A stretch of DNA of 64,000 nt from an uncultured Paracoccaceae bacterium (GTDB lineage Bacteria; Pseudomonadota; Alphaproteobacteria; Rhodobacterales; Rhodobacteraceae), in contig CAKZRP010000064.1 of assembly GCA_937146765.1 (NCBI GenBank), positions 124,001 to 188,000 of the forward strand, read 5' to 3'. Below, in pieces: positions 579 through 41,396 of the stretch (within the stretch, counting starts at the first letter, position 1; each line of letters starts with the position of its first letter). The notes under the pieces are model-generated. The model was not told the DNA's origin. It saw nothing but the letters and a program-made list of their open reading frames with translations, and made no database searches. The translations under genes were made by a program, and so were the position numbers.

Positions 579-1433
579 TCAGGTGAACTTGCGAAACAGC
601 CGCGTGCGGTCAAAGGCGGCTTCCAGCTCGTCGGTGCGCGCCTTCACCGTCTCCCAGTGGTCTTCCTGAATCTTGGCGATCATGCTCTCCACCAGCAGTA
701 AGAGCGCAACGCCGGAATCCCAGGCCGAGGGGACATTGATCCGCGCCGAGAAGGTGTGCTTGGCCACCTTCTGAATCGGCGAGCGCCATTGATCGGTGAA
801 CAAGACCACATCAACGCCGCGCTCATGCGCCATCTCGGCCAAGAGCAGGGTGGCATTTTCATAGCGGCGGATGTCAAACAGGATCAGCATGTCGCCAGGT
901 GACAGATCCAGCACCGAATGAGTCCAAGAGGCGCGCGGCGGGATCATAAACACATCGCGGCGGATCATCTGCAGATGCAGGTAGAAGTTCTGCGCGAGCG
1001 TGCCGCTCAGCCGTCCGCCTGCGATATGGATGCGGTGCGAGGTATCGGCGATCCGATTGCAGAGCCTATCGAACTCCTCAAGGTTCACATTCTCCAGCGT
1101 GGCGCGGATATTGTCGTAGACCGCCACTGCATAGCGGTTGAGCATATGGGTTTCCGGCAAGGCGGGCGCCTGTTCGGCGCGTTTGTCCACCGGGTTCGAG
1201 ATGATCTCTCGCAGCTCTTCGCGCAGGGCGTGCTGGAACTCCGGATAGCCTGAGAACCCCAATTTCTGCACCATGCGCGCCACTGTGGGGGTGGAGACTG
1301 CGGCCAGATCCGCAAGCTCGGTGATGCTGCCAAGGCCGGGGATCGGGTAATTGTCGAGAATGGCGGCGGCGAGCTGACGCTCAGCCCGGGTGAGGTCTTC
1401 CTCGCGCGCTTTCAGTTTCTCGGCAATCGTCAT
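579..1433 (-). CDS. RpiR/MurR-family transcriptional regulator (HTH + SIS)
   Basis: The protein is 284 residues. An N-terminal HTH_6 domain covers about residues 1-77 (LADLAAVSTPTVARMVQKLGF is the recognition region) and a SIS sugar-phosphate-type sensor domain covers about 120-260. The ORF track starts ten codons upstream; the ATG at 1433 is preferred because AGGAGG lies seven bases before it and the protein then starts MTIAEKLK, as in family members. It is divergent from the amidohydrolase/TRAP/ligase operon and is the obvious candidate regulator of it. SIS domains usually bind phosphosugars, but RpiR members also control amine and amino-acid pathways, so the ligand is open. Confidence 0.88.
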   Translation of the reverse strand: MTIAEKLKAREEDLTRAERQLAAAILDNYPIPGLGSITELADLAAVSTPTVARMVQKLGFSGYPEFQHALREELREIISNPVDKRAEQAPALPETHMLNRYAVAVYDNIRATLENVNLEEFDRLCNRIADTSHRIHIAGGRLSGTLAQNFYLHLQMIRRDVFMIPPRASWTHSVLDLSPGDMLILFDIRRYENATLLLAEMAHERGVDVVLFTDQWRSPIQKVAKHTFSARINVPSAWDSGVALLLLVESMIAKIQEDHWETVKARTDELEAAFDRTRLFRKFT

Positions 1434-1485
1434 CCACGGCCCTCCTGCACGGGTTTTTCGCATATTATTACAGGACGCATCGCGA

Positions 1486-1501
1486 TGAAAGAAATTTTAC
1501 A
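1486..1501. promoter_or_regulatory. Candidate RpiR operator in divergent promoter
   Basis: The RpiR/amidohydrolase intergenic region contains TGAAAGAAATTTTACA, an imperfect inverted repeat with TGAAA and TTTTACA arms resembling the AT-rich palindromes bound by RpiR-family proteins such as HexR. A second partial arm (ATTATTACA) lies about 30 bases away. The assignment rests on position and partial symmetry only. Confidence 0.35.
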
Positions 1502-1537
1502 GAAACCATATTGACAGAACGAGGTCGGCTGAAGAGC

Positions 1538-2323
1538 ATGCTTCACATGACGATAGATACGCTCACCTCCGGGATTGATCCCTCCTTTGGACCCGCTGTT
1601 GCCCGCACCCCGCGCGGGCTGGAAGCTGAGGTCATTGTTGTTTGCGAACACGCTTCCAATTGGATTCCGCCGGGCCTGTCGGACCTTGGTTTGGACGTCC
1701 ATGCCAAGCACAGCCATATCGCCTGGGACCCGGGCGCGCTGAGCGTGGCGCGGCTTTTGGCCGATACGCTGGCGGCACCCTTGGTGGAGGGCTGTATCTC
1801 TCGCTTGGTCTACGACCTCAATCGGCCGCCGGAATCGCCCACCGCGATCCCCGAAACGTCCGAGGTTTTTGCGGTACCGGGAAATCGCGACCTCTCGGAC
1901 GCGGCGCGTGCAGAGCGGGTAGCAGCGGTCTACGAACCGTTCCGCACCGCCTTGGCCGAAGAAATCGCCAGCCGCGCGGGCAAGCTGCGATTGCTGGTCA
2001 CGGTGCATAGTTTCACCCCGATCTACAACGGCGTGCCGCGCGACGTCGAGTTGGGTCTGCTGCATGGCCGAGACGACCGCTTTGCCATCGAAATGCTGGC
2101 CCGCCAACCGGAGGGTCTTGCCTGGGACACCCGCCTCAATGAGCCGTACAGTGCGGTGGATGGCGTGGCCCATACCCTGGATCTGCACGGCTGCGACAAT
2201 GGTCTGTTGAATGTGATGTTGGAAATCCGCAACGACCTGATCGCCACGGCGGACCAGCAGAAGGTCTGGGCTGACGCACTCGCCCCTTGGATCAAGACCA
2301 CTCTAGAGGAGGGGTTCGCATGA
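1538..2323 (+). CDS. N-formylglutamate amidohydrolase family protein
   Basis: A 261-residue member of the N-formylglutamate amidohydrolase family (PF05013), zinc-type enzymes that cleave N-acyl-glutamate amides. Family features are VVCEHASNWIPPGL near the N-terminus, HIAWDPGA, and LVTVHSFTPIYNG in the middle. The ORF track begins at a TTG (1511); the ATG at 1538 or the one at 1547 is likelier, and neither has a perfect ribosome site (GAAGAG precedes 1547 by about ten bases). It leads an operon: its TGA overlaps the dctQ ATG. No histidine-degradation genes are nearby, so a role releasing glutamate from a gamma-glutamyl or N-acyl intermediate made by the ligase downstream is more plausible than Hut function; this is inference. 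Confidence 0.85.
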   Translation: MLHMTIDTLTSGIDPSFGPAVARTPRGLEAEVIVVCEHASNWIPPGLSDLGLDVHAKHSHIAWDPGALSVARLLADTLAAPLVEGCISRLVYDLNRPPESPTAIPETSEVFAVPGNRDLSDAARAERVAAVYEPFRTALAEEIASRAGKLRLLVTVHSFTPIYNGVPRDVELGLLHGRDDRFAIEMLARQPEGLAWDTRLNEPYSAVDGVAHTLDLHGCDNGLLNVMLEIRNDLIATADQQKVWADALAPWIKTTLEEGFA

Positions 2324-2904
2324 TCGCAGCCATGCTGGGTTATGTGCGTGTTGTGGATGCGGTGAATTACCGGATCGGCCGCCTGATGATGTGGAGCCTT
2401 TTTGCGATGATGGGGATCCTCTTGTGGTCCTCAATCTCCAAGACCTTCTTCCTGCCCTCGCTCTGGACACTGGAAATGGCGCAGTTTGCCATGGTGACCT
2501 ATTACATCCTTGGCGGGCCCTACTCGATCCAGCTGGGGTCTAACGTGCGGATGGATCTGTTTTATCACAACTGGTCCACCCGGCGGAAAGCCTGGTTTGA
2601 TGCCTTCACCGTGTTGGCGTTGATCGCTTATCTCGCCATCCTGTTTTACGGCGGCCTCAGCTCGACCGCCTATTCGCTCGGCTATTGGGGCGACAATCCC
2701 TTTGCCTTCTTCACCGGTCTGATTACCGGGTCCGAGGAAGTGGGCCATATGGAGCGCGCCTCCACCGCATGGCGGCCCTTCATCTGGCCGATCAAGAGCA
2801 TCATGGTCTTCGGCTTCTTCCTGATGCTGTTGCAGGCCATTTCAGAACTTTTCAAAGACATTGCCCGCCTCAAGGGCCACGAGATCGCAAGCGAGCGCGC
2901 GTAA
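2320..2904 (+). CDS. dctQ: TRAP transporter small permease (DctQ)
   Basis: 194 residues when started at ATG 2320, which has AGAGGAGGGG just upstream and overlaps the previous stop as ATGA; the ORF track's earlier start is upstream read-through. The protein shows four hydrophobic segments typical of the DctQ subunit (for example around MMWSLFAMMGILLWSSISKTFF and IMVFGFFLMLLQAISELF). DctQ pairs with DctM in the inner membrane to move a substrate delivered by the periplasmic DctP, driven by a sodium or proton gradient. The stop codon overlaps the dctM start (TAATG), so all three TRAP genes are translationally coupled or closely spaced. Confidence 0.9.
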   Translation: MIAAMLGYVRVVDAVNYRIGRLMMWSLFAMMGILLWSSISKTFFLPSLWTLEMAQFAMVTYYILGGPYSIQLGSNVRMDLFYHNWSTRRKAWFDAFTVLALIAYLAILFYGGLSSTAYSLGYWGDNPFAFFTGLITGSEEVGHMERASTAWRPFIWPIKSIMVFGFFLMLLQAISELFKDIARLKGHEIASERA

Positions 2905-4223
2905 TGAGCCAGGAATATATCGCCATCTTCATGTTCGCTTCGATGATGCTGATGCTCTTCACCGGGCAGCGCGTCTTTGGGGCCATTGGGGCGGTCGGCG
3001 CCATTGCCTCGCTGCTGCTTTGGGGGGTGGGGGGCTACGACATTCCCTTTGCTGCCGCGATGAAGCTGATGAAGTGGTATCCGCTGCTGACGCTGCCGAT
3101 GTTCATCTTCATGGGCTATGTGCTGAGCGAGAGCCGCCTGGCCGACGATCTTTACAAGATGTTCCACGTCTGGATGGGGCCGATCAATGGCGGTCTCGCC
3201 ATCGGTACTATCGGTCTGATGGTGCTGGTCTCCGCGATGAACGGCCTGTCGGTGGCCGGCATGGCCATTGGTGCCACCATCGCCCTGCCGGAGCTGTTGA
3301 AGCGCGGCTATGACAAGACCATGGTCACGGGCGTCATTCAGGCTGGATCCTCGCTCGGAATTCTGGTGCCGCCCTCGGTCGTGCTGGTGCTATACGCGAT
3401 GATCGCGCGGCAGCCGGTGGGGCAGCTGTGGCTGGCCGGTGTGATACCGGGCTTGATGATGGCGGGGCTGTTCATCATCTACATCTGGCTGCGCTGCAAG
3501 ATCACGCCGTCGCTGGGTCCGGCGATGGAAGACGCGCATGAGGTGTCGCGCGCCGAAAAACTGCGCCTGTTGGGCGCGGGTGCACTGCCCTTGCTGATCT
3601 TTGCCGCGATGATGGTGCCCTTTGTGAATGGCTGGACCTCGCTGGTGGAAAGCTCTGCCATTGGCGCGCTCACCGCGCTGGCGGCTTCTATCGCCAAGGG
3701 GCGGATGAGCTGGCGGATTTTCGAATCCTGCACCAAGAACACGCTGGCCATCTCCTGCATGTTCATGTGGATCATCCTTGCCGCCTTGGGCTTTGGTGCG
3801 GTGTTTGACGGTCTGGGCGCGGTGAAGGCGATCGACAGCCTGTTCACCGATCAACTGGGCCTCAGCCCCTGGGTGATCCTGATCCTGATGCAGCTCAGCT
3901 TTATCATCATGGGGACCTTCCTGGATGACACGGCGATGCTGGTGATCGTGGCGCCGCTTTATGTGCCGCTGGTGGCCGCTCTGGGCTTTGATCTGGTGTG
4001 GTATGGTGTGCTTTATACAATCACCACGCAGATCGCCTATATGACGCCGCCCTTCGGCTATAACCTCTTCTTGATGCGGGCAATGGCGCCGCCGGAGATA
4101 GGCTTGGGCGATATCTACCGCTCCATCGTGCCCTTCGTCGGGATCATGGTTGTGGCTTTGGCGATTATCATGGCGTTCCCGCAGATCGCCCTGTGGCTGC
4201 CGCAAACGATTTACGGACAATAA
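2904..4223 (+). CDS. dctM: TRAP transporter large permease (DctM)
   Basis: 439 residues from ATG 2904; the ORF track begins 73 codons too early, inside dctQ. It is a very hydrophobic polytopic protein with about 12 membrane segments and DctM-type signatures such as GYVLSESRLADDLYKM, QAGSSLGILVPPSVVLVLYAMIA, MGTFLDDTAMLVIVAPLYVP and TTQIAYMTPPFGYNLFLM. It forms the translocation subunit with the preceding DctQ. The binding protein follows 54 bases downstream, after a short untranslated gap. Confidence 0.93.
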   Translation: MSQEYIAIFMFASMMLMLFTGQRVFGAIGAVGAIASLLLWGVGGYDIPFAAAMKLMKWYPLLTLPMFIFMGYVLSESRLADDLYKMFHVWMGPINGGLAIGTIGLMVLVSAMNGLSVAGMAIGATIALPELLKRGYDKTMVTGVIQAGSSLGILVPPSVVLVLYAMIARQPVGQLWLAGVIPGLMMAGLFIIYIWLRCKITPSLGPAMEDAHEVSRAEKLRLLGAGALPLLIFAAMMVPFVNGWTSLVESSAIGALTALAASIAKGRMSWRIFESCTKNTLAISCMFMWIILAALGFGAVFDGLGAVKAIDSLFTDQLGLSPWVILILMQLSFIIMGTFLDDTAMLVIVAPLYVPLVAALGFDLVWYGVLYTITTQIAYMTPPFGYNLFLMRAMAPPEIGLGDIYRSIVPFVGIMVVALAIIMAFPQIALWLPQTIYGQ

Positions 4224-4277
4224 TCAGAAGGTCGACCTCCAAGCGGCCCTGCACATAACAACAGAGAGGTACTTACC

Positions 4278-5315
4278 ATGACGACACGTCGTAATTTTCT
4301 GAAGACCACGGCATTTGGTGCCGCAGCCGCTGCCCCGTTGGCCACCCCAGCGCTGGCACAGGGCAAGATCACCTGGCGGATGCAGACCTACGCAGGTCCG
4401 GCGCTGGCCGCCCATGTGATCGATCCGGCGATCCAGATGTTCAACAAGATCGCAGGCGACCGCATGCAGATCGAACTCTATTACGCCGACCAGCTGGTCC
4501 CCACCGGCGAGCTGTTCCGCGCGCTGCAAAAGGGCACCATCGACGCGGTGCAGTCCGATGACGACTCCATGGCCTCACCGACCGAAGTGACCGTATTTGG
4601 CGGCTATTTCCCCTTTGCCTCCCGCTATTCGCTCGACGTGCCGGTGCTGTTCAACCAGTTCGGCCTGAACGAGATCTGGGACGAAGAATATTCTAAGGTT
4701 GGCGTGAAGCATATTTCGGCCGGCTCCTGGGACCCCTGCCACTTTGCCACCAAGGACCCGATCACCAGCCTGAAGGATCTGGAAGGCAAGCGCGTCTTCA
4801 CCTTCCCGACCGCCGGTCGTTTCCTCAGCCAGTTCGGCGTGGTGCCGGTCACCCTGCCGTGGGAAGATATCGAAGTTGCGGTGCAGACCGGCGAGCTCGA
4901 TGGCATCGCTTGGTCCGGCATCACCGAGGATTACACCGTGGGTTGGGCCGATGTGACCAACTACTTCCTCACCAACAATATCTCCGGCGCCTGGGCGGGC
5001 AGCTTCTTTGCCAACATGGACCGCTGGAATGAGCTGCCGGAAGACCTGCAGACCCTGTTCCGCGTCTGCTGTGACCAGTCGCATTACTACCGTCAGTGGT
5101 GGTATTGGGGAGGCGAAGCCTCTCTGCGCGTTAATGGCGATAAGATGAAGCTGACCTCGATTCCGGACGCAGAATGGCAGACCGTCGAAGACGCCGCCGT
5201 GAAATTCTGGGACGAGATCGCAGCCGAGTCCGAAACCAAGGCAAAGGTCGTCGAGATCTTCAAGAAATATAACGCGGATATGGCCAAGGCTGGCCGTCCC
5301 TATCGCTACGGCTGA
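4278..5315 (+). CDS. dctP: TRAP transporter substrate-binding protein (DctP), Tat signal
   Basis: A 345-residue periplasmic binding protein. The N-terminus MTTRRNFLKTTAFGAAAA carries a twin-arginine motif and ends with ATPALAQ, so it is probably exported folded by Tat. The family region LEGKRVFTFP keeps the arginine that in DctP proteins salt-bridges a carboxylate of the ligand, suggesting an anionic or zwitterionic substrate. The segment LPWEDIEVAVQTGELDGIAW is the expected DctP hinge region. The gene sits between the permease genes and the ligase gene; a GC-rich hairpin follows its stop and could stabilise the transcript for high binding-protein levels. The ligand is unknown. Confidence 0.92.
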   Translation: MTTRRNFLKTTAFGAAAAAPLATPALAQGKITWRMQTYAGPALAAHVIDPAIQMFNKIAGDRMQIELYYADQLVPTGELFRALQKGTIDAVQSDDDSMASPTEVTVFGGYFPFASRYSLDVPVLFNQFGLNEIWDEEYSKVGVKHISAGSWDPCHFATKDPITSLKDLEGKRVFTFPTAGRFLSQFGVVPVTLPWEDIEVAVQTGELDGIAWSGITEDYTVGWADVTNYFLTNNISGAWAGSFFANMDRWNELPEDLQTLFRVCCDQSHYYRQWWYWGGEASLRVNGDKMKLTSIPDAEWQTVEDAAVKFWDEIAAESETKAKVVEIFKKYNADMAKAGRPYRYG

Positions 5316-5342
5316 TCAGGTCGTAAGACGTCACCAAATGTC

Positions 5343-5369
5343 GGGGGCGGGGCTTTGGTCCTGCCCCCT
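5343..5369 (+). terminator. Intercistronic hairpin after dctP
   Basis: GGGGGC and GCCCCC arms flank a short loop between dctP and the glutamine-synthetase-like gene. There is no U-tract, so it is more likely an attenuator or mRNA-stabilising stem-loop than a full terminator. Confidence 0.4.
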
Positions 5370-5392
5370 GTCAGCAATCAAGGGAAAGACAG

Positions 5393-6745
5393 ATGACTTT
5401 CGAGGATCTCAAGGAACAGGTCGCCGCCGGACGGATTGATACCGTGCTGGTCTGCATTGTGGACATGCAGGGCCGCCTGATGGGCAAACGCTTCCACGCC
5501 GAGGCTTTCCTCGAGATGGCGCATGACGAGACGCATTGCTGCAACTACTTGCTGGCCACCGACCTTGCGATGTCGACTCCGGTCGGTTTTGCCGCCACCA
5601 GCTGGGAACACGGCTATGGCGACTACATCATGAAGCCGGACCTGACCACGCTGCGCCCGGTGCCGTGGCTGGAGGGGACCGCCATGGTGCTTTGTGATGT
5701 GATCGATCACCACACCCATGCGCCCGTTGGTCATTCGCCGCGCCAGATGCTGAAATCGCAGATCGCCCGCTGCGCCGAGGCCGGTCTGACGCCGATGATG
5801 GCGACCGAGCTGGAGTTTTTCCTGTTCCGCGGCACCCATGACGAGATCGCCCGTGGTGGCTTCCGCAATCTGGAGCCGATCTCGACCTATAACGAGGACT
5901 ATAGCATCTTCCAGACCTCGAAAGAGGAGCCGGTGATGCGGCCGATCCGTAACCATCTGCGCGCCATGGGGCTGCCGATCGAAGGGTCCAAAGGTGAGGC
6001 CGAGGCGGGTCAGGAAGAGCTGAACATCAAATACGCCGAAGCCATGGCGACTGCCGATCACCACACGATCGCCAAACATGGCATCAAGGAAATCGCCCAT
6101 CAGCAGGGCTATGCCGCGACCTTCCTGCCGAAGTGGCACCACGCGCGGGTGGGGTCGTCCTCCCATGTGCATCAGTCGCTGTGGAAAGATGGCAAGAACG
6201 CCTTTTACGACGAGAGCGCGCCGCTTGGAAAATCCAAGCTGATGGACCACTATATGGCGGGCCTGCTGAAATACGCCGCCGATTACACATACTTTATGGC
6301 GCCCTACATCAACAGCTACAAACGCTTTGCCAAGGGCACCTTTGCGCCGACCCAGGTGGTCTGGTCGGTGGACAACCGGACCGCGGCCTTCCGCCTGTGC
6401 GGTGAGGGCACCAAGGCGGTGCGTGTTGAATGCCGGGTGCCGGGCTCGGACATGAACCCCTATCTGGCGCAGGCCGCGATGCTGGCCGCAGGTCTCAAAG
6501 GGATCGAGGAGAAGCTGGAGCTGCAGGCGGCGTTCAGCGGTGATGCCTATGAGAGCAAGGTGAAGACCCACATCCCCCAGACGCTGCAGGATGCGCGCGA
6601 GGCGATGATGGGGTCCGAGATGCTGCGCGAAGCCTTTGGCGAGGTGGTGATGACCCATTACGCCCGTGCGGCCGAGTGGGAGATCGAAGAGTTCAACCGC
6701 GTGGTGACCGACTACGAGATCGCGCGCGGATTTGAGAAGGCCTGA
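5393..6745 (+). CDS. Glutamine synthetase family protein (gamma-glutamyl-amine ligase-like)
   Basis: 450 residues with the GS catalytic core: ATELEFFLF (metal/glutamate site) near residue 137, EAGQEELNIKYAEAM, the ATP-binding GSSSHVHQSLW near 260, NSYKRFAKGTFAPTQVVWSVDNR, and ECRVPGSDMNPYLAQAAML. It lacks an obvious adenylylation-tyrosine segment of housekeeping GlnA and resembles PuuA/IpuC/GMAS-type ligases that join glutamate to amines. Expected reaction: amine + glutamate + ATP to gamma-glutamyl amide. The neighbouring alcohol and aldehyde dehydrogenases suggest oxidation of the glutamylated side chain, and the amidohydrolase at the operon start could release glutamate. The amine substrate is not determinable here. 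Confidence 0.85.
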   Translation: MTFEDLKEQVAAGRIDTVLVCIVDMQGRLMGKRFHAEAFLEMAHDETHCCNYLLATDLAMSTPVGFAATSWEHGYGDYIMKPDLTTLRPVPWLEGTAMVLCDVIDHHTHAPVGHSPRQMLKSQIARCAEAGLTPMMATELEFFLFRGTHDEIARGGFRNLEPISTYNEDYSIFQTSKEEPVMRPIRNHLRAMGLPIEGSKGEAEAGQEELNIKYAEAMATADHHTIAKHGIKEIAHQQGYAATFLPKWHHARVGSSSHVHQSLWKDGKNAFYDESAPLGKSKLMDHYMAGLLKYAADYTYFMAPYINSYKRFAKGTFAPTQVVWSVDNRTAAFRLCGEGTKAVRVECRVPGSDMNPYLAQAAMLAAGLKGIEEKLELQAAFSGDAYESKVKTHIPQTLQDAREAMMGSEMLREAFGEVVMTHYARAAEWEIEEFNRVVTDYEIARGFEKA

Positions 6746-6759
6746 TACCTAGAGGGCTA

Positions 6760-6809
6760 GCGGGGGCCAGCCCCCGCACCCCCGGGATATTTGAGAGAAG
6801 ATGAAGAGA
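6760..6809 (+). repeat. Palindromic intergenic element, copy A
   Basis: A GC-rich hairpin (GCGGGGGC ... GCCCCCGC) is followed by CCCCCGGGATATTTGAG and AGAAGATGAAG. The CCGGGATATTT core with an AAGATGAAG-like tail recurs at 8235, 55376 and 60220, so this is a dispersed element rather than a simple terminator. It lies between the ligase and aldehyde dehydrogenase genes. Confidence 0.7.
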
Positions 6810-6847
6810 GGCAGGGCTGTATCCAGCACCTGCGGAGGAGTGCGCCC

Positions 6848-8230
6848 ATGGGCAAGACTTTGAACTGTATTTCGCCGATTGATGGATCGGTTTACGCCAG
6901 CCGCGAGACGCTGGATTTGGACGCAGCCCGCGCTGAAGTCGCCAAGGTGCGTGCCGCGCAAAAGGCCTGGGCTGCACGCCCCTTGCAGGAGCGGGTGGAT
7001 CTGGTGCTGGCAGGTGTTGCTGCCGTTGGCGCGATGAACGACGAGATCGTCCCCGAACTGGCGCATATGATGGGCCGTCCCACTCGCTTTGGTGGCGAAT
7101 TCCGCGGCTTCAACGAGCGCGCTTCCTACATGGCTGAGATCGCTGCTGAAGCTTTGGCGGATATCGAGGTGGGTGAGGATGCGAGTTTCAAACGCTACAT
7201 CAAGCGCATCCCGCATGGGGTGGTCTTTGTCGTTGCGCCTTGGAACTACCCCTATATGACGGCGATCAACACGGTGGCACCGGCGCTGATCGCAGGCAAT
7301 ACGGTGGTTCTGAAACACGCCACGCAGACGCTGCTGGTGGGTGAGAGGATGGCGGCGGCCTTCCACGCCGCTGGCGTGCCTGAGGAGGTGTTCAAGAATG
7401 TCTTCCTCGACCACGATGTCACCTCTGCCCTGATTGCCGAACGCGCCTTTGACTTCGTGAACTTCACCGGCTCTGTCGGCGGTGGTCAGGCGATGGAGCG
7501 CGCTGCAGCGGGCACCTTTACCGGCGTTGGCACCGAGCTTGGAGGCAAGGACCCTGGTTATGTCATGGAGGACGCCGACCTCGACGCGGCGGTTGATACT
7601 CTGATCGACGGCGCCATGTTCAACTCCGGTCAGTGCTGCTGCGGGATCGAGCGGATCTATGTCCACGAGAGCCTCTATGACGCCTTTGTGGAAAAGGCCG
7701 TGGCTTTGGTCAAAGGTTACAAACTTGGCAACCCGCTGGATGCAGAGACCACCATTGGCCCGATGGCGAATGTGCGCTTTGCCGAGGAAGTCCGCGCCCA
7801 GATCGCCGAGGCCCTGGCGCAAGGCGCGGTGGCCCATATCGAGCCCTTCGCCGAGGACGATGGCGCCGCCTATCTGACCCCGCAGATCCTGACCAATGTC
7901 ACCCACGAGATGCGCGTGATGCGCGATGAAAGCTTCGGCCCCGTGGTGGGCATCATGAAGGTCTCCTCGGATGAGGAAGCCATCCGCCTGATGAATGACA
8001 GCGAATTCGGCCTCACCGTCTCGCTCTGGACCAAAGATTTGGAGCGCGCTGAAGCGATCGGCGATCAGTTGGAAACCGGCACGGTCTTTATGAACCGCGC
8101 TGACTATCTTGATCCGGGCCTCTGCTGGACCGGCTGCAAGAACACCGGGCGTGGCGGCGGCCTCTCTGTCATTGGTTATCAGAACCTGACCCGGCCGAAG
8201 TCTTATCACCTGAAAAAAGTCACCTCCTAA
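6848..8230 (+). CDS. Aldehyde dehydrogenase family protein
   Basis: 460 residues from ATG 6848 (GGAGG about eight bases upstream); the ORF track begins in the repeat element before it. NAD(P)-dependent ALDH motifs are FVVAPWNYPYMTAINTVAPAL, FTGSVGGGQAMERA, TELGGKDPGYVMEDAD, and the catalytic cysteine region FNSGQCCCGIERIYV, with an unusual triple cysteine. It should oxidise an aldehyde to a carboxylate, probably the product of the adjacent iron alcohol dehydrogenase, on free or gamma-glutamylated substrate. A palindromic repeat copy lies on each side of the gene, but orientation and spacing still fit a single operon. Confidence 0.9.
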   Translation: MGKTLNCISPIDGSVYASRETLDLDAARAEVAKVRAAQKAWAARPLQERVDLVLAGVAAVGAMNDEIVPELAHMMGRPTRFGGEFRGFNERASYMAEIAAEALADIEVGEDASFKRYIKRIPHGVVFVVAPWNYPYMTAINTVAPALIAGNTVVLKHATQTLLVGERMAAAFHAAGVPEEVFKNVFLDHDVTSALIAERAFDFVNFTGSVGGGQAMERAAAGTFTGVGTELGGKDPGYVMEDADLDAAVDTLIDGAMFNSGQCCCGIERIYVHESLYDAFVEKAVALVKGYKLGNPLDAETTIGPMANVRFAEEVRAQIAEALAQGAVAHIEPFAEDDGAAYLTPQILTNVTHEMRVMRDESFGPVVGIMKVSSDEEAIRLMNDSEFGLTVSLWTKDLERAEAIGDQLETGTVFMNRADYLDPGLCWTGCKNTGRGGGLSVIGYQNLTRPKSYHLKKVTS

Positions 8231-8234
8231 GGCC

Positions 8235-8298
8235 CTTCATCTTTTCAAAAATATCCCGGGGGAGCTTGCCGGATGGCAAGCGGGGGCAGCGCCCCCAT
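8235..8298 (-). repeat. Palindromic intergenic element, copy B
   Basis: Read on the minus strand it contains a GGGGGC hairpin, CTTGCC/GGCAAG arms and the CCCCCGGGATATTTTTG core followed by AAAAGATGAAGGGC. It is the inverted counterpart of copy A and lies immediately after the aldehyde dehydrogenase stop. Confidence 0.75.
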
Positions 8299-8326
8299 TC
8301 CCGGCTCTCATCACAGGAACATGCAG

Positions 8327-9472
8327 ATGTCTCTCACTGGAAACTGGTCCTATCCGACCGCGATCAAATTCGGCGCAGGCCGTATTCAGGAACTGGCCGC
8401 CGCCTGTGCGCAGGCCGGGATCAAGAAACCGCTTCTCGTCACCGACAAGGGCCTCGCCGCTCTGCCGGTGACCCAATCCACCCTCGATATCCTGGAGGCC
8501 GCAGGCCTTGGCCGCGCGATGTTTTCCGAGGTTGACCCGAACCCGAACGAAAAGAACCTTGAGGCTGGCGTCGCCGCCTATAAGGCTGGCGGTCATGACG
8601 GCGTGATCGCTTTTGGCGGTGGCTCGGGCCTCGACCTTGGCAAGATGGTTGCCTTTATGGCCGGTCAAACCCGCCCGGTCTGGGATTTTGAGGATATCGG
8701 CGATTGGTGGACCCGCGCCGATGCCGCGGCCATTGCACCGATCATCGCTGTGCCGACCACTGCGGGCACCGGTTCCGAAGTGGGCCGTGCCTCGGTCATC
8801 ACCGATTCCGTCACCCATCAGAAGAAGATCATCTTCCATCCGAAGGTGCTGCCGACCGTAGTGATCTGCGACCCCGAGCTGACCGTGGGGATGCCGAAAT
8901 TCATCACTGCAGGCACCGGGCTTGACGCCTTTGCCCATTGTGTCGAGGCTTTCTCTTCGCCCTTCTATCATCCGATGTCGCAGGGCATTGCCCTCGAAGG
9001 CATGCGTCTGGTCAAGGACTACCTGCCGCGCGCCTATGCCGATGGCACTGACCTTGAGGCCCGCGCGCAGATGATGTCCGCCGCCGCCATGGGGGCCACC
9101 GCCTTCCAAAAGGGTCTCGGCGCCATCCACGCAATGAGCCACCCGATTGGCGCGGTCTTCAACACCCACCACGGCACCACCAACGCGGTCTGTATGCCTG
9201 CGGTGCTGGAGTTCAACGCCTCCGCGATTGCCGCGCGCTTTGACATGGCGGCCGCCTACCTCGGGATCGAGGGCGGCTTTGCCGGCTTCCAGCGCTTTGT
9301 GCAAGAGCTCAACGACAGCATGGGCATTCCGCGTACCCTGTCCGAGCTGGGCGTGACCGCAGACGCGATCCCCGAGCTGGTCAAGGGCGCGATCATCGAC
9401 CCGAGCTGCGGCGGCAACCCGATTGAATTGACCGAAGAAAACCTGACGCAGCTGTTTCAAGCAGCCCTCTGA
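8327..9472 (+). CDS. Iron-containing (group III) alcohol dehydrogenase
   Basis: About 381 residues starting MSLTGNWSYPTAIKFGAGR. ATG 8327 has AGGA eight bases upstream; ATG 8321 is too close to it, and the longer ORF-track start lies inside the repeat. Family motifs are the NAD-binding GGGSGLDLGKMVAF, VPTTAGTGSEVGRASVI, and metal ligands in GTGLDAFAHCVEAF, HAMSHPIGAVFNTHHGTTNAV. The expected reaction is NAD-linked oxidation of a primary alcohol to the aldehyde consumed by the preceding ALDH. As the last operon gene it is followed by a clear terminator. In the proposed pathway it would oxidise the hydroxyl of a gamma-glutamyl amino alcohol. Confidence 0.93.
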   Translation: MSLTGNWSYPTAIKFGAGRIQELAAACAQAGIKKPLLVTDKGLAALPVTQSTLDILEAAGLGRAMFSEVDPNPNEKNLEAGVAAYKAGGHDGVIAFGGGSGLDLGKMVAFMAGQTRPVWDFEDIGDWWTRADAAAIAPIIAVPTTAGTGSEVGRASVITDSVTHQKKIIFHPKVLPTVVICDPELTVGMPKFITAGTGLDAFAHCVEAFSSPFYHPMSQGIALEGMRLVKDYLPRAYADGTDLEARAQMMSAAAMGATAFQKGLGAIHAMSHPIGAVFNTHHGTTNAVCMPAVLEFNASAIAARFDMAAAYLGIEGGFAGFQRFVQELNDSMGIPRTLSELGVTADAIPELVKGAIIDPSCGGNPIELTEENLTQLFQAAL

Positions 9473-9501
9473 GGCTGTATAAGGTCCCCGAAGACCTGAG
9501 C

Positions 9502-9534
9502 GAGGCCGTGCCCAGATTGGGCGCGGCCTTTTTC
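9502..9534 (+). terminator. Rho-independent terminator of ligase/dehydrogenase operon
   Basis: AGGCCGTGCCCA and TGGGCGCGGCCT pair around a three-base loop and run into TTTTT. It stands between the alcohol dehydrogenase and the convergent LacI gene. Confidence 0.85.
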
Positions 9535-9543
9535 ACTGCACAA

Positions 9544-10545
9544 TCAGATCCGCGCCACGCTGTCGCGGCGGATCAGCGAGACTTCGATCACCTCGGAAGG
9601 ACCCGTCAGCGTTCCGGCTTCGATCATGTCCAACAACAGCCGCGCCGCGCGTTCACCGACCTGCGTGCGCCGCTGCCGGATGGTGGTAAGGGCAGGGGTC
9701 AGATGCCCGACAACCTCAATGTTGTCAAAGCCCACCAGCGAGACATCCTGCGGCACGCTAAAGCCCTTGTGCTGCACCGCCCCCATAAAGCCAATCGCCA
9801 TCTCGTCCGAGGCGCAGAACAGCGCGGTGGGGCGGTCTTCTAGCCCCATCCAGACTTCGCCCGCGGCGGCGCCGGCATCCATGCTGAAATCGCCGTCAAA
9901 GATCCAGTCTTCGCGCGCCTCCAGCCCATTCTCCTGCACGACCTTGCAGAACCCGCTCAAACGATCCTCGGAGAGCACATTGCCGCGCGGCCCCAGCACA
10001 TGGCCAATCCGTCGATGTCCCATCTCCACCAGATGCGCGACCGCAAGCTCTGCCCCGCGGGCATTTTCAGTGCGCACCGAGGGCAGGCTGTCATCCATCC
10101 ACTCGCAGGCCATGATGACTGGTGGCCGACCGGCCATCGCGAGGGGCGCAGGTGAAAGGGTGCCGTCAAACAGGATGATCCCATCTGCAATCGCGGATTG
10201 CAGATAACTCGACATCCGATCCTCGGGGAAGGGGCCTGCTTGGGTATCCGTCACCAAAAGCCCATAGCCCGCAGGTTGTAGTACCGAATTCACCCCGGCG
10301 AGGATCTGTGAAAAAAACGGGTTCGCCAGATTCGGGATCAGCGCAATGACGCTGCCGGTGCGCTGGCGTCGCAGATTCGAGGCGGTGGTATTTACCCGAT
10401 ATCCGGTGCGCTCAACGGCGGCCAAAACCGCCTCCCGAGTCGCTTTCGCCACGACCGAAGGCTTCGACAAGGTCCGGCTGACCGTCGCGGTGGACACCCC
10501 GGCCTCTGCTGCAACATCCTGAATCGTGGCGATTTTCTTTTCCAT
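9544..10545 (-). CDS. LacI-family transcriptional repressor
   Basis: 333 residues from ATG 10545, preceded by AGAGGTGGG; the ORF-track start is 26 codons upstream. The N-terminus MEKKIATIQDVAAEAGVSTATVSRTLSKP is a textbook LacI HTH plus hinge, followed by a periplasmic-binding-protein-like sensor domain (GSVIALIPNLANPFFSQILAGV, SLVGFDNIEVVGHLTPALTTIRQ). It is divergent from a sugar ABC operon and two LacI-type operators lie between them, so it most likely represses both itself and the transporter until the imported sugar binds. Confidence 0.93.
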   Translation of the reverse strand: MEKKIATIQDVAAEAGVSTATVSRTLSKPSVVAKATREAVLAAVERTGYRVNTTASNLRRQRTGSVIALIPNLANPFFSQILAGVNSVLQPAGYGLLVTDTQAGPFPEDRMSSYLQSAIADGIILFDGTLSPAPLAMAGRPPVIMACEWMDDSLPSVRTENARGAELAVAHLVEMGHRRIGHVLGPRGNVLSEDRLSGFCKVVQENGLEAREDWIFDGDFSMDAGAAAGEVWMGLEDRPTALFCASDEMAIGFMGAVQHKGFSVPQDVSLVGFDNIEVVGHLTPALTTIRQRRTQVGERAARLLLDMIEAGTLTGPSEVIEVSLIRRDSVARI

Positions 10546-10590
10546 GCACCCACCTCTGAGGGGGTTCAGAATGCCCCAAGGAAAAACTGT

Positions 10591-10604
10591 TGTAAACGAT
10601 TGCG
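10591..10604. promoter_or_regulatory. LacI-type operator, site 1
   Basis: TGTAAACGATTGCG has the central CG and a TGTAA half-site; the other arm is degenerate. It lies 33 bases from site 2, close to three helical turns, in the LacI/ABC divergent promoter. Confidence 0.65.
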
Positions 10605-10623
10605 GCTTTTGCAAAGCTGGCAT

Positions 10624-10637
10624 TGTAAACGATTACA
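10624..10637. promoter_or_regulatory. LacI-type operator, site 2
   Basis: TGTAAACGATTACA is a near-perfect palindrome (TGTAA-N-CG-N-TTACA) with the central CpG typical of LacI-family operators. It lies about 77 bases before the ATPase start. Confidence 0.75.
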
Positions 10638-10713
10638 GCGCTACCGCTGAGCCCGTTTGCCCAAAGTTCAGCCAGGGAGCGCGCCTGAGGAGAGGCGCGG
10701 GGAGGAGTTGGCC

Positions 10714-12273
10714 GTGAACACAAAGCTTGATCCGGCGGGACCGGCGTCTTCAGCCGTGGGTGTGAAACAGGCCCAGCTGGCGGTTCTGGAGGCCCAAGGA
10801 GTCACCCGTTGCTTTGGCCCGGTGCAGGTCTTGCATGGGGTGCCCTTTGCCCTCAGATCAGGGCAGGTCCATGCGCTGATCGGCGAGAACGGTGCCGGCA
10901 AGTCCACCTTGATGAAGATCCTTGCGGGCTTTCTCTCCCCCTCGGGCGGCAGCCTGCATTTGGATGGCCAACCGGTGCAATTTGCCGACCATGTGGCGGC
11001 GGAGGCTGCGGGCATTTTGATGATCCATCAAGAGTTCAACCTCGCCCTCCAGTTGACCGCGGCAGAGAATATCTTTTTGGGGCGAGAGCATCGGCGCGGC
11101 CTGTTCCTCGACCACCGCAGGATGCAGGAGGAAGCCCGCGATCTCTTGGCGCAGATGAACTGCCACATCGACCCGCGCACCCGGATTTCCGACCTGTCGG
11201 TCCCGAACCGCCAGATGGTCGAGATCGCCCGCGCCTTGGGTCGACGGGCGCGGGTGCTGATCATGGACGAACCGACCGCCGTACTCACCAACCGCGAGAC
11301 CGAGGTGCTCTTGACGCAGATCGACCGGCTACGGGCGGCAGGTACAGCGGTGTTTTTCACCTCCCACAAGCTCGACGAGGTGCAGCGGATCGCGGATCAG
11401 GTCACGGTGCTGCGCGATGGCCACCATGTGCTGACGCGCGCGGCCCAGGGCTTTACCGAAGACGCCATGGCCGAGGCGATGGTGGGCCGCGAGATGAGCG
11501 ATCTGTTCCCGCCCAAACCCGTCCCGCAAGCGGAGGTCGTCCTGCAAGCGCAAGGGATCAGCGTGCCGGGACTGGTGCGTGGGGCGAGCTTTCATCTGCG
11601 GCGGGGCGAGGTTCTCGGCTTCGCGGGCCTTGTCGGCGCCGGGCGCACGGAACTGATGGAAGCCATCGCGGGTCTTCGCCCGGCCACCGGAAGGCTGGCG
11701 ATCAACGGCGCGACGGTGCCGCTTGGCTCGGTGCAGGCCTCGCGCGCGGCGGGACTTGCCTACCTCACCGAGGATCGCAAGGAAAAGGGTCTGCTCCTTG
11801 GCAAGGGCCTACGCGAAAACCTCACCCTACTGGCGCTGGACCGGTTCGGGCGCTGGCGGATCGATCACCAAGGCGAGGCCCGCGCGCTCGTAAAAGCAAT
11901 CGCGGAGTTTGACATCCGCGCCCGCGATCCCTCCGTGCCCGTCGGCAGCCTCTCCGGGGGCAATCAGCAGAAACTCTTGCTGGCGAAAACCATGCTCGCA
12001 GAGCCGCAGATCGTCATCATCGACGAGCCCACCCGCGGCATCGACATCGGCACCAAACAACAAATCTACGCCTTTATCACCCGCCTCGCCCAACAGGGCC
12101 ACAGCATCATCGTCGTCTCCTCGGAACTGCCCGAAGTTATCGGCCTCGCCGATCGCATTGTGGTGATGGGGCGCGGCTATATCGCGGGGGAACTCGCAGG
12201 CGACCAGATCAGCGAAGACGCCATCCTGCGCCTGGCCATGGGCGTCGGTGCAGACCGGAAGGACACCGCATGA
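10714..12273 (+). CDS. Sugar ABC transporter ATP-binding protein (RbsA/XylG type)
   Basis: About 519 residues from GTG 10714, which has GGAGGAG seven bases before it; the ORF track starts at an upstream TTG overlapping the promoter. It is a tandem ATPase: first half with Walker A GENGAGKST and degenerate signature LSVPNRQMVEIA, second half with GLVGAGRTEL in the Walker A position and signature LSGGNQQKLLLAK. The degenerate second P-loop is normal for carbohydrate-uptake ATPases of the RbsA family. The stop overlaps the permease start. No sugar kinase or isomerase is adjacent, so the sugar cannot be named. Confidence 0.93.
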   Translation: MNTKLDPAGPASSAVGVKQAQLAVLEAQGVTRCFGPVQVLHGVPFALRSGQVHALIGENGAGKSTLMKILAGFLSPSGGSLHLDGQPVQFADHVAAEAAGILMIHQEFNLALQLTAAENIFLGREHRRGLFLDHRRMQEEARDLLAQMNCHIDPRTRISDLSVPNRQMVEIARALGRRARVLIMDEPTAVLTNRETEVLLTQIDRLRAAGTAVFFTSHKLDEVQRIADQVTVLRDGHHVLTRAAQGFTEDAMAEAMVGREMSDLFPPKPVPQAEVVLQAQGISVPGLVRGASFHLRRGEVLGFAGLVGAGRTELMEAIAGLRPATGRLAINGATVPLGSVQASRAAGLAYLTEDRKEKGLLLGKGLRENLTLLALDRFGRWRIDHQGEARALVKAIAEFDIRARDPSVPVGSLSGGNQQKLLLAKTMLAEPQIVIIDEPTRGIDIGTKQQIYAFITRLAQQGHSIIVVSSELPEVIGLADRIVVMGRGYIAGELAGDQISEDAILRLAMGVGADRKDTA

Positions 12274-13271
12274 GTGATATCCCCTTGCCCTCCACCGAAA
12301 CCCCGCGGCGCAAGCTGAACCTGCATGTGCTGGGGCCGATCCTTGCCCTTGTTGCTCTGATCGTGCTGGGCGCTTGCCTCAACAGTAATTTCCTCAGCTA
12401 CGGCAATGTGACCAATGTGCTGGCGCGCTCGGCCTTTATTGGCATTATCGCGGTGGGCATGACCTTTGTAATTACCGCCGGCGGTATCGACCTCTCGGTT
12501 GGCTCCATGGCCGCCTTTGTCGCCGGGGTGATGATCATGGCGATGAACGCGCTGATCCCGGCCCTAGGGATCGGTGTACCGTTGATCTTTGCGGGCATGT
12601 GTGTCGCTTTGGTGGCCGGCTTGGCCGCTGGGCTGTTGAACGGGTTCCTCATCTCCAAAATCGGGATCGAGGCCTTTATCGTCACCCTAGGCTCGATGGG
12701 GATCTACCGCAGCCTCACCACTTGGCTTGCGGATGGCGGCACCCTGTCACTCGACTATGGCGCGCGGAGTTTTTATCGCCCGGTCTATTACGATGGGCTC
12801 TTGGGCATAAGCTGGCCGATCCTCGTCTTTGCCGTGGTTGCGATCCTCGGGGAACTGGCCATGCGGCACACTCCGTTTGGCCGCTACTGCGCCGCCCTTG
12901 GTGCCAATGAGCAAGTGGCGCGCTATTCCGCCGTCAAGGTTGACCGCATCCGCATGGGCACCTATGTGCTGCTCGGCGCGCTCGTGGGCCTTGCGACCAT
13001 CATGTATGTGCCGCGCCTCGGCTCCGCCTCCGGCTCCACCGGCGTTCTGTGGGAACTTGAGGCCATCGCGGCCGTGATCATCGGTGGCACCGTCCTCAAA
13101 GGCGGATCAGGTCGCGTCTGGGGCACAGTCACCGGCGTCCTGATCCTGAGCCTCATCGACAATATTCTGAATCTCGCCTCCATCGTCAGCCCGTATTTGA
13201 ACGGGGCGATCCAGGGCGTGATCGTCGTTCTTGCTGTGGTCTTGCAGCGCGAGCGCAAATCGGCCGAGTGA
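12270..13271 (+). CDS. Sugar ABC transporter permease (RbsC type)
   Basis: 333 residues, ATG overlapping the ATPase stop as ATGA. It is a BPD_transp_2 family membrane protein with eight to ten hydrophobic segments. Recognisable stretches are IIAVGMTFVITAGGIDLSVGSM near residue 55 and ALGANEQVARYSAVKVDRIRM, plus AVIIGGTVLKGGSGRVWGTVTG, which are conserved in ribose/xylose/allose permeases. One permease gene implies a homodimeric channel, with the tandem ATPase and the following binding protein. Confidence 0.93.
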   Translation: MSDIPLPSTETPRRKLNLHVLGPILALVALIVLGACLNSNFLSYGNVTNVLARSAFIGIIAVGMTFVITAGGIDLSVGSMAAFVAGVMIMAMNALIPALGIGVPLIFAGMCVALVAGLAAGLLNGFLISKIGIEAFIVTLGSMGIYRSLTTWLADGGTLSLDYGARSFYRPVYYDGLLGISWPILVFAVVAILGELAMRHTPFGRYCAALGANEQVARYSAVKVDRIRMGTYVLLGALVGLATIMYVPRLGSASGSTGVLWELEAIAAVIIGGTVLKGGSGRVWGTVTGVLILSLIDNILNLASIVSPYLNGAIQGVIVVLAVVLQRERKSAE

Positions 13272-13298
13272 TCGGTCATTTTAGGGAGGAAATACTTA

Positions 13299-14255
13299 AT
13301 GTTACGCAGAAATTTCCTGAAAGGCGCCGCTCTAGCCGCGAGCCTTGTCAGCGCTGGCGCCGTCGCCGCCGAAGGGGAAAGCTACACCATTGGCGTCGCG
13401 ATCCCTTCGGCCACCCATGGCTTTATGGGCGGGCTGAACTACCACGCCCAAGCCGCTATCGACCGGCTGGAGGCGACCTATCCGCAGCTCAGCTTTGTGC
13501 TGGCGACGGCAGGTGACGCGGGCAAGATGGTCAACGATGTGGAGGACATGGTGGCCACCCGCAATATCGACGCGTTGGTCATCCTGCCCTTTGAGAGCGA
13601 GCCGCTGACCGCCCCGGTTCAGGCGGTCAAGGACCAGGGGATCTGGGTCACCGTGGTGGACCGGGGCCTCTCGGTGCCGGGGATCGAGGATCTCTATGTT
13701 GCGGGCGACAATCCGGGTTTTGGCCGCGCGGCGGGCGAATATTTTGCCGACAAGCTGGGCGAGGGCGACAATGTCGTAGTGCTGCGCGGCATCCCGACGA
13801 CTCTCGATAATGAGCGGGTCGACGCCTTTGAGGCAGCGCTTGATGGCAGTGGTGTCACCATCCTCGACAAGCAGCACGGCAACTGGAACCGCGACGATGC
13901 CTTCAACGTGATGCAGGACTACCTGTCGAAATACGACAAGATCGACGCGGTCTGGGCGGCGGATGATGACATGGCCATCGGCGTGCTCGAAGCCATCGCG
14001 CAGGCGGGCCGTGAAAAGGAGATGTGGGTCGTTGGCGGCGCCGGCATGAAAGAGATCATCAAGCGCATCATGGATGGCGACCCGCAGCTGCCGGTCAACG
14101 TGACCTACCCGCCCGCCCAGATTGCCACCGCGATCGAGTTGACCGCGCTGGGCTTGGTCTCCACCACCCCGGTCTCTGGCCGCTTTATTATTGGCAGCCA
14201 GCTGGTGACGCCGGAGAATGCGAAGGATTTCTATTTCCCGGATAGCCCCTACTGA
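13299..14255 (+). CDS. Sugar ABC transporter substrate-binding protein (RbsB type)
   Basis: 318 residues with a Tat-type leader MLRRNFLKGAALAASLVSAG and a likely cleavage after AVAA. The mature part is a Peripla_BP_4 fold: YTIGVAIPSATHGFMGGLNYHAQAA, RNIDALVILPFESEPLTAPVQAV, VVDRGLSVPGIEDLYVAGDNPGFGRAAGEYF. It is last in the LacI-controlled operon and is followed by a strong terminator. The ligand is probably a pentose, hexose or polyol judging by family only. Confidence 0.93.
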   Translation: MLRRNFLKGAALAASLVSAGAVAAEGESYTIGVAIPSATHGFMGGLNYHAQAAIDRLEATYPQLSFVLATAGDAGKMVNDVEDMVATRNIDALVILPFESEPLTAPVQAVKDQGIWVTVVDRGLSVPGIEDLYVAGDNPGFGRAAGEYFADKLGEGDNVVVLRGIPTTLDNERVDAFEAALDGSGVTILDKQHGNWNRDDAFNVMQDYLSKYDKIDAVWAADDDMAIGVLEAIAQAGREKEMWVVGGAGMKEIIKRIMDGDPQLPVNVTYPPAQIATAIELTALGLVSTTPVSGRFIIGSQLVTPENAKDFYFPDSPY

Positions 14256-37644: not shown

Positions 37645-38259
37645 ATGAACCAGAGCGCAGCAATCGTGCGCACGGGTCGCAAGTTCGACCAGGTCCTCGA
37701 CGGGGCCCGCAAAGTTTTTATGGCGGATGGATTCGAAGGCGCCAGCGTGGACGAGATCGCCCGCGCCGCCGAGGTCTCCAAGGCCACGCTCTACAGCTAC
37801 TTTCCGGACAAACGCCTGTTGTTCATGGAAGTGGCCCGCAGCGAATGCGCCCGCCACGCCGACCGCCAGATCGAGATCCCCGAGGAGGCCGGTCCTGAAC
37901 AGGTGCTGCTGGATGTGGCCCGCAAGATGATGGCGGTGATCCTGTCGGAGTTCGGCCAGAAGATCTTTCGCATCTGCGTCGCCGAGACCGAGCGCTTTCC
38001 TGATCTCGGGCGTGAATTCTTCGAGAGCGGTCCGCAGGTGGAGCGCAGCAAGCTTAAATGCTACTTTCGCAAGGCGGTGGAGCGCGGTGAACTGAAGATC
38101 GAGGATTTCGACATGGCGGCCGAGCAATGGATGGCACTCTGCCGCGCCGACCTCTTCCCGCGCATGATCTTCAACATCAAGGACAGCGTCAGCGAGGCAG
38201 ATATCGACCGGGTGGCCCGGGCCTCGGTCGAGATGTTCCTGGCCCGCTACGGCGCCTGA
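37645..38259 (+). CDS. TetR/AcrR-family transcriptional regulator
   Basis: 204 residues. The HTH at about residues 15-60 (GARKVFMADGFEGASVDEIARAAEVSKATLYSYFPDKRLLF) is canonical. The C-terminal domain (RKMMAVILSEFGQKIFRICVAE, then AEQWMALCRADLFPRMIF) is of the AefR/TetR_C_7 sort. It is divergent from the AEC transporter and probably regulates it and itself. A hairpin follows the stop. Confidence 0.9.
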   Translation: MNQSAAIVRTGRKFDQVLDGARKVFMADGFEGASVDEIARAAEVSKATLYSYFPDKRLLFMEVARSECARHADRQIEIPEEAGPEQVLLDVARKMMAVILSEFGQKIFRICVAETERFPDLGREFFESGPQVERSKLKCYFRKAVERGELKIEDFDMAAEQWMALCRADLFPRMIFNIKDSVSEADIDRVARASVEMFLARYGA

Positions 38260-38285
38260 CCGCCCGCCGGGACCTTTCGGCGGTC
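38258..38285. terminator. Hairpin between TetR and convergent cytochrome c' gene
   Basis: GACCGCC and GGCGGTC arms around a 14-base loop; no strong T-run. Confidence 0.45.
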
Positions 38286-38302
38286 TCAAAGGGCGCGCGG
38301 CC

Positions 38303-38800
38303 CTAATGGGTGATGAACTCGTTGACCTCGGCGCGATAGGTCCGGTGGCAGCTCTGGCAGGCCTGGATCACCGCCGGCAGGGTGCGGCGCAGACTATCGA
38401 GCGAGCGGGTCCTTAGCCCCTTGGCCGCGTCCTCGGCGTCTGCGGCGCGGGCTTCAAAATCCTCCCAGCGGGACCAGATCACGGGCAGGGCGTGGGAATC
38501 CCTGTCGTGGAGTGGCTTGCGGAACAGCTTGGGGATCTCCCCGGCGCTGTCGATCAGGTCCCGGCGCAGGGCGCGGGCGCTGCGGGCATCAAAGGCGATA
38601 CTGCCGCCGTTCATGTTGATCAGCTGGTGGACGACGGCATTCTGGCGGTTCATCTGGTCGATGCGGGCCCGGGCATGGGGGTCGGCTATTGACCGGTCGC
38701 GGGTCAGCGCGGGGGCCGAGCCGAGGCTCAGCAGAAGCAGCCCCAGCGCCGCAAGGGCAGCGATTGACCGAATCGGAATTTTTGAACAAATGTAGAACAA
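38303..38800 (-). CDS. Cytochrome c' family protein
   Basis: About 165 residues from a TTG at 38800, which has GGGGAG six bases upstream; the ORF-track start runs into the imuB leader. A signal peptide (SIAALAALGLLLLSLGSAPAL) precedes a four-helix-bundle domain, and the haem motif CQSCHRTYR lies close to the C-terminus, as in cytochrome c'. Such periplasmic haemoproteins bind NO or CO and help resist nitrosative stress. The start codon touches a LexA-type box, so divergent imuB induction and this gene may interfere. Confidence 0.85.
   Translation of the reverse strand: MFYICSKIPIRSIAALAALGLLLLSLGSAPALTRDRSIADPHARARIDQMNRQNAVVHQLINMNGGSIAFDARSARALRRDLIDSAGEIPKLFRKPLHDRDSHALPVIWSRWEDFEARAADAEDAAKGLRTRSLDSLRRTLPAVIQACQSCHRTYRAEVNEFITH
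38784..38798. promoter_or_regulatory. LexA (SOS) box, GAAC-N7-GAAC
   Basis: GAACAAATGTAGAAC matches the alphaproteobacterial LexA direct repeat (GTTC-N7-GTTC on the other strand). It lies about 90 bases before imuB, a gene that is SOS-controlled in other bacteria. Confidence 0.8.
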
Positions 38801-38886
38801 ACCTGTCTCCCCTGCCGGGTTTTGCTGTGGGCGCTGCTGCCCCTTTCGCTGCCATCTGTCACCTGCCAACTGCCGGGCCTGTTGCC

Positions 38887-40560: not shown

Positions 40561-40639
40561 GGTCCGGCCCGCCGACGCTTCGACGAGGGCCGAAGTCTTT
40601 GCCATGGGCAGCGCGCGCCGGAGGCGCTAGGCTGATGCC

Positions 40640-41365
40640 ATGGCGACACCCAGATTTGACATCATCGGACAGGCAATCAGCGACGCGAGCCGCACCCGGA
40701 TGCTCTGCGAGCTGATGGAGGGGCGCGCCTTCACCAACAAGGAGCTTGCCGCCGCCGCCGGCATCACCGCCCAGACCGCCACCGCCCATCTGCGCCTGTT
40801 ACAGGACGCCGGTCTGGTGCTGGCCGAGCGGCGCGGTCGCTGCGTCTATCACCGGCTGGCGGGACCCGAGGTGGCACAGGCGCTCGAAAGCCTTGCGGCG
40901 ATTGCGCCGCGCGACAGCCTCTATCGCGCGCAACGGCGCAAGGCGGGTGGACTGGCCGAGGTGCGCAGCTGTTATGACCACCTCGCCGGGCCGCTTGCGG
41001 TGGCGATGACGCAGGCGCTGCTGGCCCGTGGAGCCCTGCACGAGGAGAACGGCGGCTTTGTCGCGGTGGCGGGGCCGGTCTGGGCGGCGCTCGGTGTCAC
41101 CCTGCCGGAGCGCCTTGGCCGGACGCCCTTTGCCCGCCCCTGCCTCGACTGGACCGAACGCAAGCTGCATATCGCCGGGCCGATGGGGCGGCAGATCCTG
41201 AGCCATGCGCTGACGGCGGGCTGGCTGTGTCGGCCCACCTCGGGCCCGCAGCGCGGGCGCGGGCTGGAGGTCACCGGCCCCGGCAAGCGCGCGCTGCAGG
41301 ATCTGCTGGGGATCGGCGGTGCGGTTTCGGCGGTTTGCGCGGCGCATCCGCGCGAAGATGCTTGA
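40640..41365 (+). CDS. ArsR-family regulator with C-terminal extension
   Basis: 241 residues. The winged helix covers residues 1-95 (DASRTRMLCELMEGRAFTNKELAAAAGITAQTATAHLRLLQDAGLVLAERRGRCVYHRL). The remaining 145 residues have no recognisable enzyme motif but resemble the C-terminal part of other alphaproteobacterial ArsR-like regulators. No cysteine metal-binding site is evident in the HTH. Its target is not visible; DUF2794 follows in the same direction. Confidence 0.85.
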   Translation: MATPRFDIIGQAISDASRTRMLCELMEGRAFTNKELAAAAGITAQTATAHLRLLQDAGLVLAERRGRCVYHRLAGPEVAQALESLAAIAPRDSLYRAQRRKAGGLAEVRSCYDHLAGPLAVAMTQALLARGALHEENGGFVAVAGPVWAALGVTLPERLGRTPFARPCLDWTERKLHIAGPMGRQILSHALTAGWLCRPTSGPQRGRGLEVTGPGKRALQDLLGIGGAVSAVCAAHPREDA

Positions 41366-41396
41366 TTTGCGGCGCAAAAGCACCGACCTTTGACAG

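Follow-up and report, generated by a model that had tools for sequence, protein, structure and literature searches.

What does an operon that joins a TRAP transporter to a glutamine synthetase (GS)-like ligase, an N-formylglutamate amidohydrolase (FGase)-family hydrolase and two dehydrogenases import and degrade? The genes occupy positions 579-9472 of the window, the whole 64,000-nucleotide stretch of DNA analyzed here, which is contained in a genome of 4.7 Mb that is 99.99% complete; the nearest named relatives, as judged by DctP, are Epibacterium sp. Ofav1-8 (97% identity) and Phaeobacter sp. HF9A (96%). The original prediction proposed the gamma-glutamylation of an imported amine or amino alcohol and considered the hydrolase to be a novelty. 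Our analysis upheld the outline of this chemistry and not the novelty. We are confident that this is an EtoVWX/gamma-glutamylethanolamide operon, allowing the use of ethanolamine as a carbon and nitrogen source; close amino alcohols are probably substrates as well.

Layout of the operon and its candidate operator

Eight open and intact genes were found, in the order and on the strands previously proposed, and the divergent RpiR gene, the overlaps and the families were all confirmed, each protein scoring above the Pfam gathering score. The RpiR-family regulator (579-1433, minus strand; HTH_6 and SIS) is the orthologue of MED193_10021 by its position in Fig. 5C of PMC10132767, and its translation probably starts at 1433 rather than at the start of the longest open reading frame. 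On the plus strand follow the FGase-family hydrolase, a predicted gamma-glutamylglycine amidohydrolase (GGAH; 1547-2323; PF05013), the small TRAP permease DctQ (EtoV; 2320-2904; PF04290), the large permease DctM (EtoW; 2904-4223; PF06808), the solute-binding protein DctP (EtoX; 4278-5315; PF03480), the GS-like ligase, a predicted ethanolamine gamma-glutamylase (ETAGA; 5393-6745; PF00120, Gln-synt_C), an aldehyde dehydrogenase (GAADDH; 6848-8230; PF00171, Aldedh) and an iron alcohol dehydrogenase (GETADH; 8321-9472; PF00465, Fe-ADH). The start codons of the hydrolase (ATG at 1547, or alternatively at 1538), dctQ (2320) and the aldehyde (6848) and alcohol (8321) dehydrogenases deviate slightly from those of the longest reading frames. 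The hydrolase gene and dctQ overlap by 4 bp (ATGA) and dctQ and dctM by 1 bp, the remaining plus-strand intergenic gaps being of 54-102 bp. At about 9502-9533 of the plus strand there is an intrinsic terminator made up of a strong hairpin (-29.3 kcal/mol, z -5.87) and a T5 run, and therefore the operon is closed before the convergent LacI gene (9544-10623). From the gene spacing, the candidate promoter described below and this terminator we infer that the seven plus-strand genes constitute one transcript.

The LacI-family regulator is divergent to genes for a ribose/xylose-type sugar ABC transporter (ATPase, permease and binding protein); this region (9544-14255) is a sugar locus unrelated to the operon. 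At the other end, positions 1-578 of the minus strand encode part of an AMP-binding (acyl-adenylating) enzyme with the motif YCQSSGSTGFAKT; this gene lies directly downstream of rpiR, in the same reading direction, and a homologue is found in the same place in locus L087 (2100-3248). Further away, the G+C content of positions 38000-44000 is 0.68-0.70 vs about 0.62 around them; as read by eye, this segment encodes an ImuB-like DNA polymerase, an NlpC/P60 hydrolase and a leucyl aminopeptidase.

The region between rpiR and the hydrolase gene contains a TTGACA element (1511-1516) and a dyad, TGAAG-N6-CTTCA (1530-1545), that overlaps the expected -10 position, as the site of an RpiR repressor would. 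Comparison across relatives led us to regard positions 1511-1545 of the plus strand as a candidate promoter and RpiR operator. The sequence TATTGACA was found in 52 of the 74 orthologous intergenic regions. Among 50 non-redundant regions a degenerate dyad, with the approximate consensus TGWAA-N-TTWCA, occurs at a fixed distance from TTGAC, and its mean arm pairing is 0.55 vs 0.43 or less at any other center; as the regions were anchored on TTGAC, which makes this element invariant by construction, the dyad is the independent evidence. A generic promoter scan of the region found nothing better than chance and did not flag the candidate at 1511-1545. The divergent RpiR protein would most likely repress the operon until its substrate is present. 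If positions 1511-1545 are the promoter, the hydrolase mRNA is nearly leaderless.

The ligand of DctP and the reaction of the ligase

A PDB search identified 4UAB/4XF5, two entries with one and the same chain sequence, as the best solved relative of DctP (E 5.8e-192), with 267 of 317 residues identical (84%). We take this chain to be the ethanolamine binder Csal_0678 of Chromohalobacter salexigens, the ligands in the entries being ethanolamine and 2-amino-1-propanol (the latter in 4XF5). The structure of Csal_0678 has no counterpart of the conserved TRAP arginine and the protein binds ethanolamine; phenylalanine is the commonest substitute for this arginine in proteins of this kind (PMC4646407). 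In DctP, Phe174 (GKRVFTFP) aligns with the TRAP arginine of another TRAP protein (4YZZ alignment), the carboxylate-binding position, so that the expected ligand is an amino alcohol with a positive charge rather than a carboxylate. DctP is therefore a protein without the TRAP arginine whose closest solved relative is a Csal_0678-type chain, an assignment based on alignment (the identity to 4UAB/4XF5 and Phe174). EtoX of Phaeobacter sp. MED193 binds ethanolamine with a Kd of 7.9 uM (PMC10132767) and, by analogy with this orthologue and that of C. salexigens, for which binding is known, DctP of this organism is expected to bind ethanolamine. The concern that DctP might accept only carboxylates has in effect been addressed with orthologues elsewhere, which bind ethanolamine. 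The proposal that an amino alcohol is imported was thus borne out and can be narrowed to ethanolamine; the original prediction was right in outline and too cautious about the substrate.

DctP carries a twin-arginine signal scoring above the model cut-off (TIGR01409, TAT_signal_seq; window positions 4278-4360) and probably leaves the cytoplasm in folded form. A Tat signal also features in the name of the solved 4UAB chain.

A main substrate other than ethanolamine has to be weighed, for example L-alaninol (2-amino-1-propanol), which would be converted via gamma-glutamylalanine to alanine, with ethanolamine as a secondary substrate. All the chemistry of the operon would suit it, and 2-amino-1-propanol is the ligand bound in 4XF5. 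Specificity may also drift: in a genome of the same genus (locus L087, positions 3315-12250) the operon proteins are 76-92% identical to those of the window and only the binding protein, a paralogue with Tyr at the position of Phe174, seems to have been exchanged (64%). Nevertheless, ethanolamine is far commoner in nature than L-alaninol. Moreover, phosphorylethanolamine is the inducer of the orthologue in Roseobacter, which has the micromolar affinity for ethanolamine given above (PMC10132767). We consequently give L-alaninol as the main substrate very little credence. Ethanolamine may still be one of several substrates, as the 2-amino-1-propanol in the crystal of the orthologous EtoX would indicate.

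The ligase shares 309 of 448 residues (69%) with 5DM3, which presumably comes from the Csal_0678 cluster. Its residues for metal, ATP and glutamate are conserved: it has E139, E141, E202, E209, H258, R311, R329, R334, E346 and R348, equivalent to E129, E131, E212, E220, H269, R321, R339, R344, E357 and R359 of GS, and has Phe317 at the position of the ammonium-site Glu327. GlnA4, a proven gamma-glutamylethanolamide synthetase that forms this product and not glutamine, has Phe331 at the same position (PMC6529630). With the GS catalytic residues kept and Glu327 replaced by Phe, the ligase is GlnA4-like, in support of the gamma-glutamylation originally proposed; these residues and the likeness to GlnA4 predict that it is an ethanolamine gamma-glutamylase. 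The NCBIfam profile search returned no specific name for the ligase or for the hydrolase.

These data also bear on the remaining readings. A Puu/Pau-like route for polyamines such as putrescine, or an Ipu-like one for isopropylamine, would share with Puu a GS-like ligase and an aldehyde dehydrogenase, and the E. coli Puu pathway resembles the one proposed here in that an amine is gamma-glutamylated and oxidized to the acid, and the amide hydrolyzed. However, its substrate is a diamine, on which the iron alcohol dehydrogenase would have no role; it uses the FAD oxidase PuuB and no alcohol dehydrogenase, and the class I amidotransferase-like PuuD and no FGase-family hydrolase. The operon has neither an oxidase gene nor PuuD, the ligase scored 208.5 bits vs a cut-off of 650 in the gamma-glutamylputrescine synthetase model (PuuA, GGputSyn), and the binding protein is nearest to an ethanolamine binder, leaving this reading a negligible probability. 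Equally negligible is an operon for the catabolism of dicarboxylates or of histidine/formylglutamate (Hut-type) that includes a true glutamine synthetase: it would agree with the Pfam name of the hydrolase, N-formylglutamate amidohydrolase, and with the acids carried by most TRAP systems, but Phe174 and Phe317 replace the residues needed, the ligase falls under the GlnA (246 vs 429 bits) and type III GS (244 vs 470 bits) cut-offs, and there are no hut genes within the unit. The putrescine, isopropylamine, Hut and dicarboxylate readings were accordingly rejected on the model cut-offs, the residue replacements and the binding-protein match.

A proposed gamma-glutamylation route for ethanolamine

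Ethanolamine would be captured in the periplasm by the Tat-exported EtoX and imported by EtoVW. The GS-like ligase would join it to glutamate at the expense of ATP, forming gamma-glutamylethanolamide, whose alcohol group would be oxidized to the aldehyde by the iron alcohol dehydrogenase; the aldehyde dehydrogenase would then yield gamma-glutamylglycine, and the FGase-family enzyme would split it into glycine and glutamate, the latter being recycled. For this organism we infer every step, and with it which oxidation comes first, what the hydrolase does and that RpiR acts as a repressor. Ethanolamine binding, the induction of the proteins by the substrate and the ligase reaction (of the Streptomyces homologue) are known from orthologues elsewhere (PMC10132767, PMC4646407, PMC6529630).

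The same operon has been described in Phaeobacter sp. MED193 (MED193_10021 to 10056: RpiR, GGAH, EtoV, EtoW, EtoX, ETAGA, GAADDH and GETADH), where phosphorylethanolamine induces the encoded proteins and ethanolamine from membrane lipids is broken down to glycine (Westermann et al. 2023, PMC10132767). That operon, from the same bacterial family, agrees with the window in all eight gene families, in gene order and in the divergent RpiR; compared by families and order, the two show no difference of substance, only sequence divergence. The originally proposed oxidation in two steps, by the iron alcohol dehydrogenase and then the aldehyde dehydrogenase, is supported, as is the hydrolysis of the amide by an FGase-family enzyme. 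For the first report, on C. salexigens and Agrobacterium, the MED193 study refers to Vetting et al. 2015 (doi 10.1021/bi501388y; PMC10132767). In the gammaproteobacterium C. salexigens, the likeness of the Csal_0678 cluster to the window rests on the identities of the binding protein (84%) and the ligase (69%) and on four enzyme Pfams in common, PF00120, PF00465, PF00171 and PF05013 (PMC9397018 Table 2, 2022). The GlnA4 cluster of Streptomyces coelicolor (SCO1610-SCO1615; Krysenko et al. 2019, PMC6529630) also encodes a ligase with Phe at the Glu327 position, a dehydrogenase, an aldehyde dehydrogenase and a formylglutamate-amidohydrolase-family enzyme. Unlike in the window, no TRAP transporter is reported there, the repressor is EpuRI, and the permease gene is absent from that strain.

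The use of an FGase-family hydrolase in place of PuuD, regarded as new in the original prediction, is already published (PMC10132767, PMC6529630, PMC9397018): hydrolysis of gamma-glutamylglycine was assigned to the formylglutamate amidohydrolase family in 2019 (PMC6529630), and to the PF05013 enzyme again in 2022. In the cited accounts the hydrolase step and both dehydrogenase steps are deduced from the families of the proteins, the positions of their genes and their induction, not from enzyme assays. The only PDB relative of the hydrolase in the window is 2ODF (Atu2144; E 1.7e-66). As assigned from family knowledge, the aldehyde dehydrogenase contains the catalytic residues Cys264 and Glu230, and the alcohol dehydrogenase the metal ligands D202, H206, H270 and H284 (D-H-H-H). 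These genes thus form one more copy of a known operon and no variant of it.

The B12-dependent Eut route was rejected, as EutB (PF06751) is absent from the whole 99.99% complete genome, the E. coli control being positive. With no ethanolamine ammonia-lyase in the genome, the gamma-glutamylation operon is likely the ethanolamine route of this organism.

Conservation of the operon and a possible exchange of its binding protein

The neighborhood comparison originally suggested for the same families found the full eight-gene order and orientation in 66 of 80 genome loci, which were picked by DctP similarity and are thus biased to Rhodobacteraceae and close DctP relatives; about 6 of the remainder are cut by contig ends. 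Because the order is kept in so many assemblies, the eight-gene arrangement is not due to chance. Median identities across the loci range from about 50% (RpiR and hydrolase) up to 90% (DctP), so that the arrangement persists in spite of strong divergence in some of the proteins. In six loci with EtoVWX and no linked enzymes (L014, L020, L053, L075, L076 and L083), translations read by eye revealed no consistent substitute pathway, the neighbors being unrelated. One genome has, besides a normal EtoX (90%, G017), a second EtoX-like TRAP set without enzymes (L086, positions 7001-9964; DctP 62%, DctM 64%), which adjoins a DeoR-like regulator and apparent glycerol-catabolism genes (also by eye).

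The identities in L087 suggest an exchange of the binding-protein gene alone, possibly with an altered ligand, and the pattern of L089 is similar (DctP 60%, enzymes 71-78%). That the operon serves amino alcohols in general, its specificity re-set by swapping only the binding-protein gene, seems unlikely to us; if true, the same set of enzymes would in some members process substrates different from ethanolamine.

The operon represents a widespread marine route linking the breakdown of phospholipids to nitrogen and carbon, hidden by name-based annotation as glutamine synthetase, N-formylglutamate amidohydrolase and C4-dicarboxylate TRAP. The replacement of the TRAP arginine by Phe together with that of GS Glu327 by Phe within one operon is diagnostic, a pointer to amino-alcohol gamma-glutamylation.
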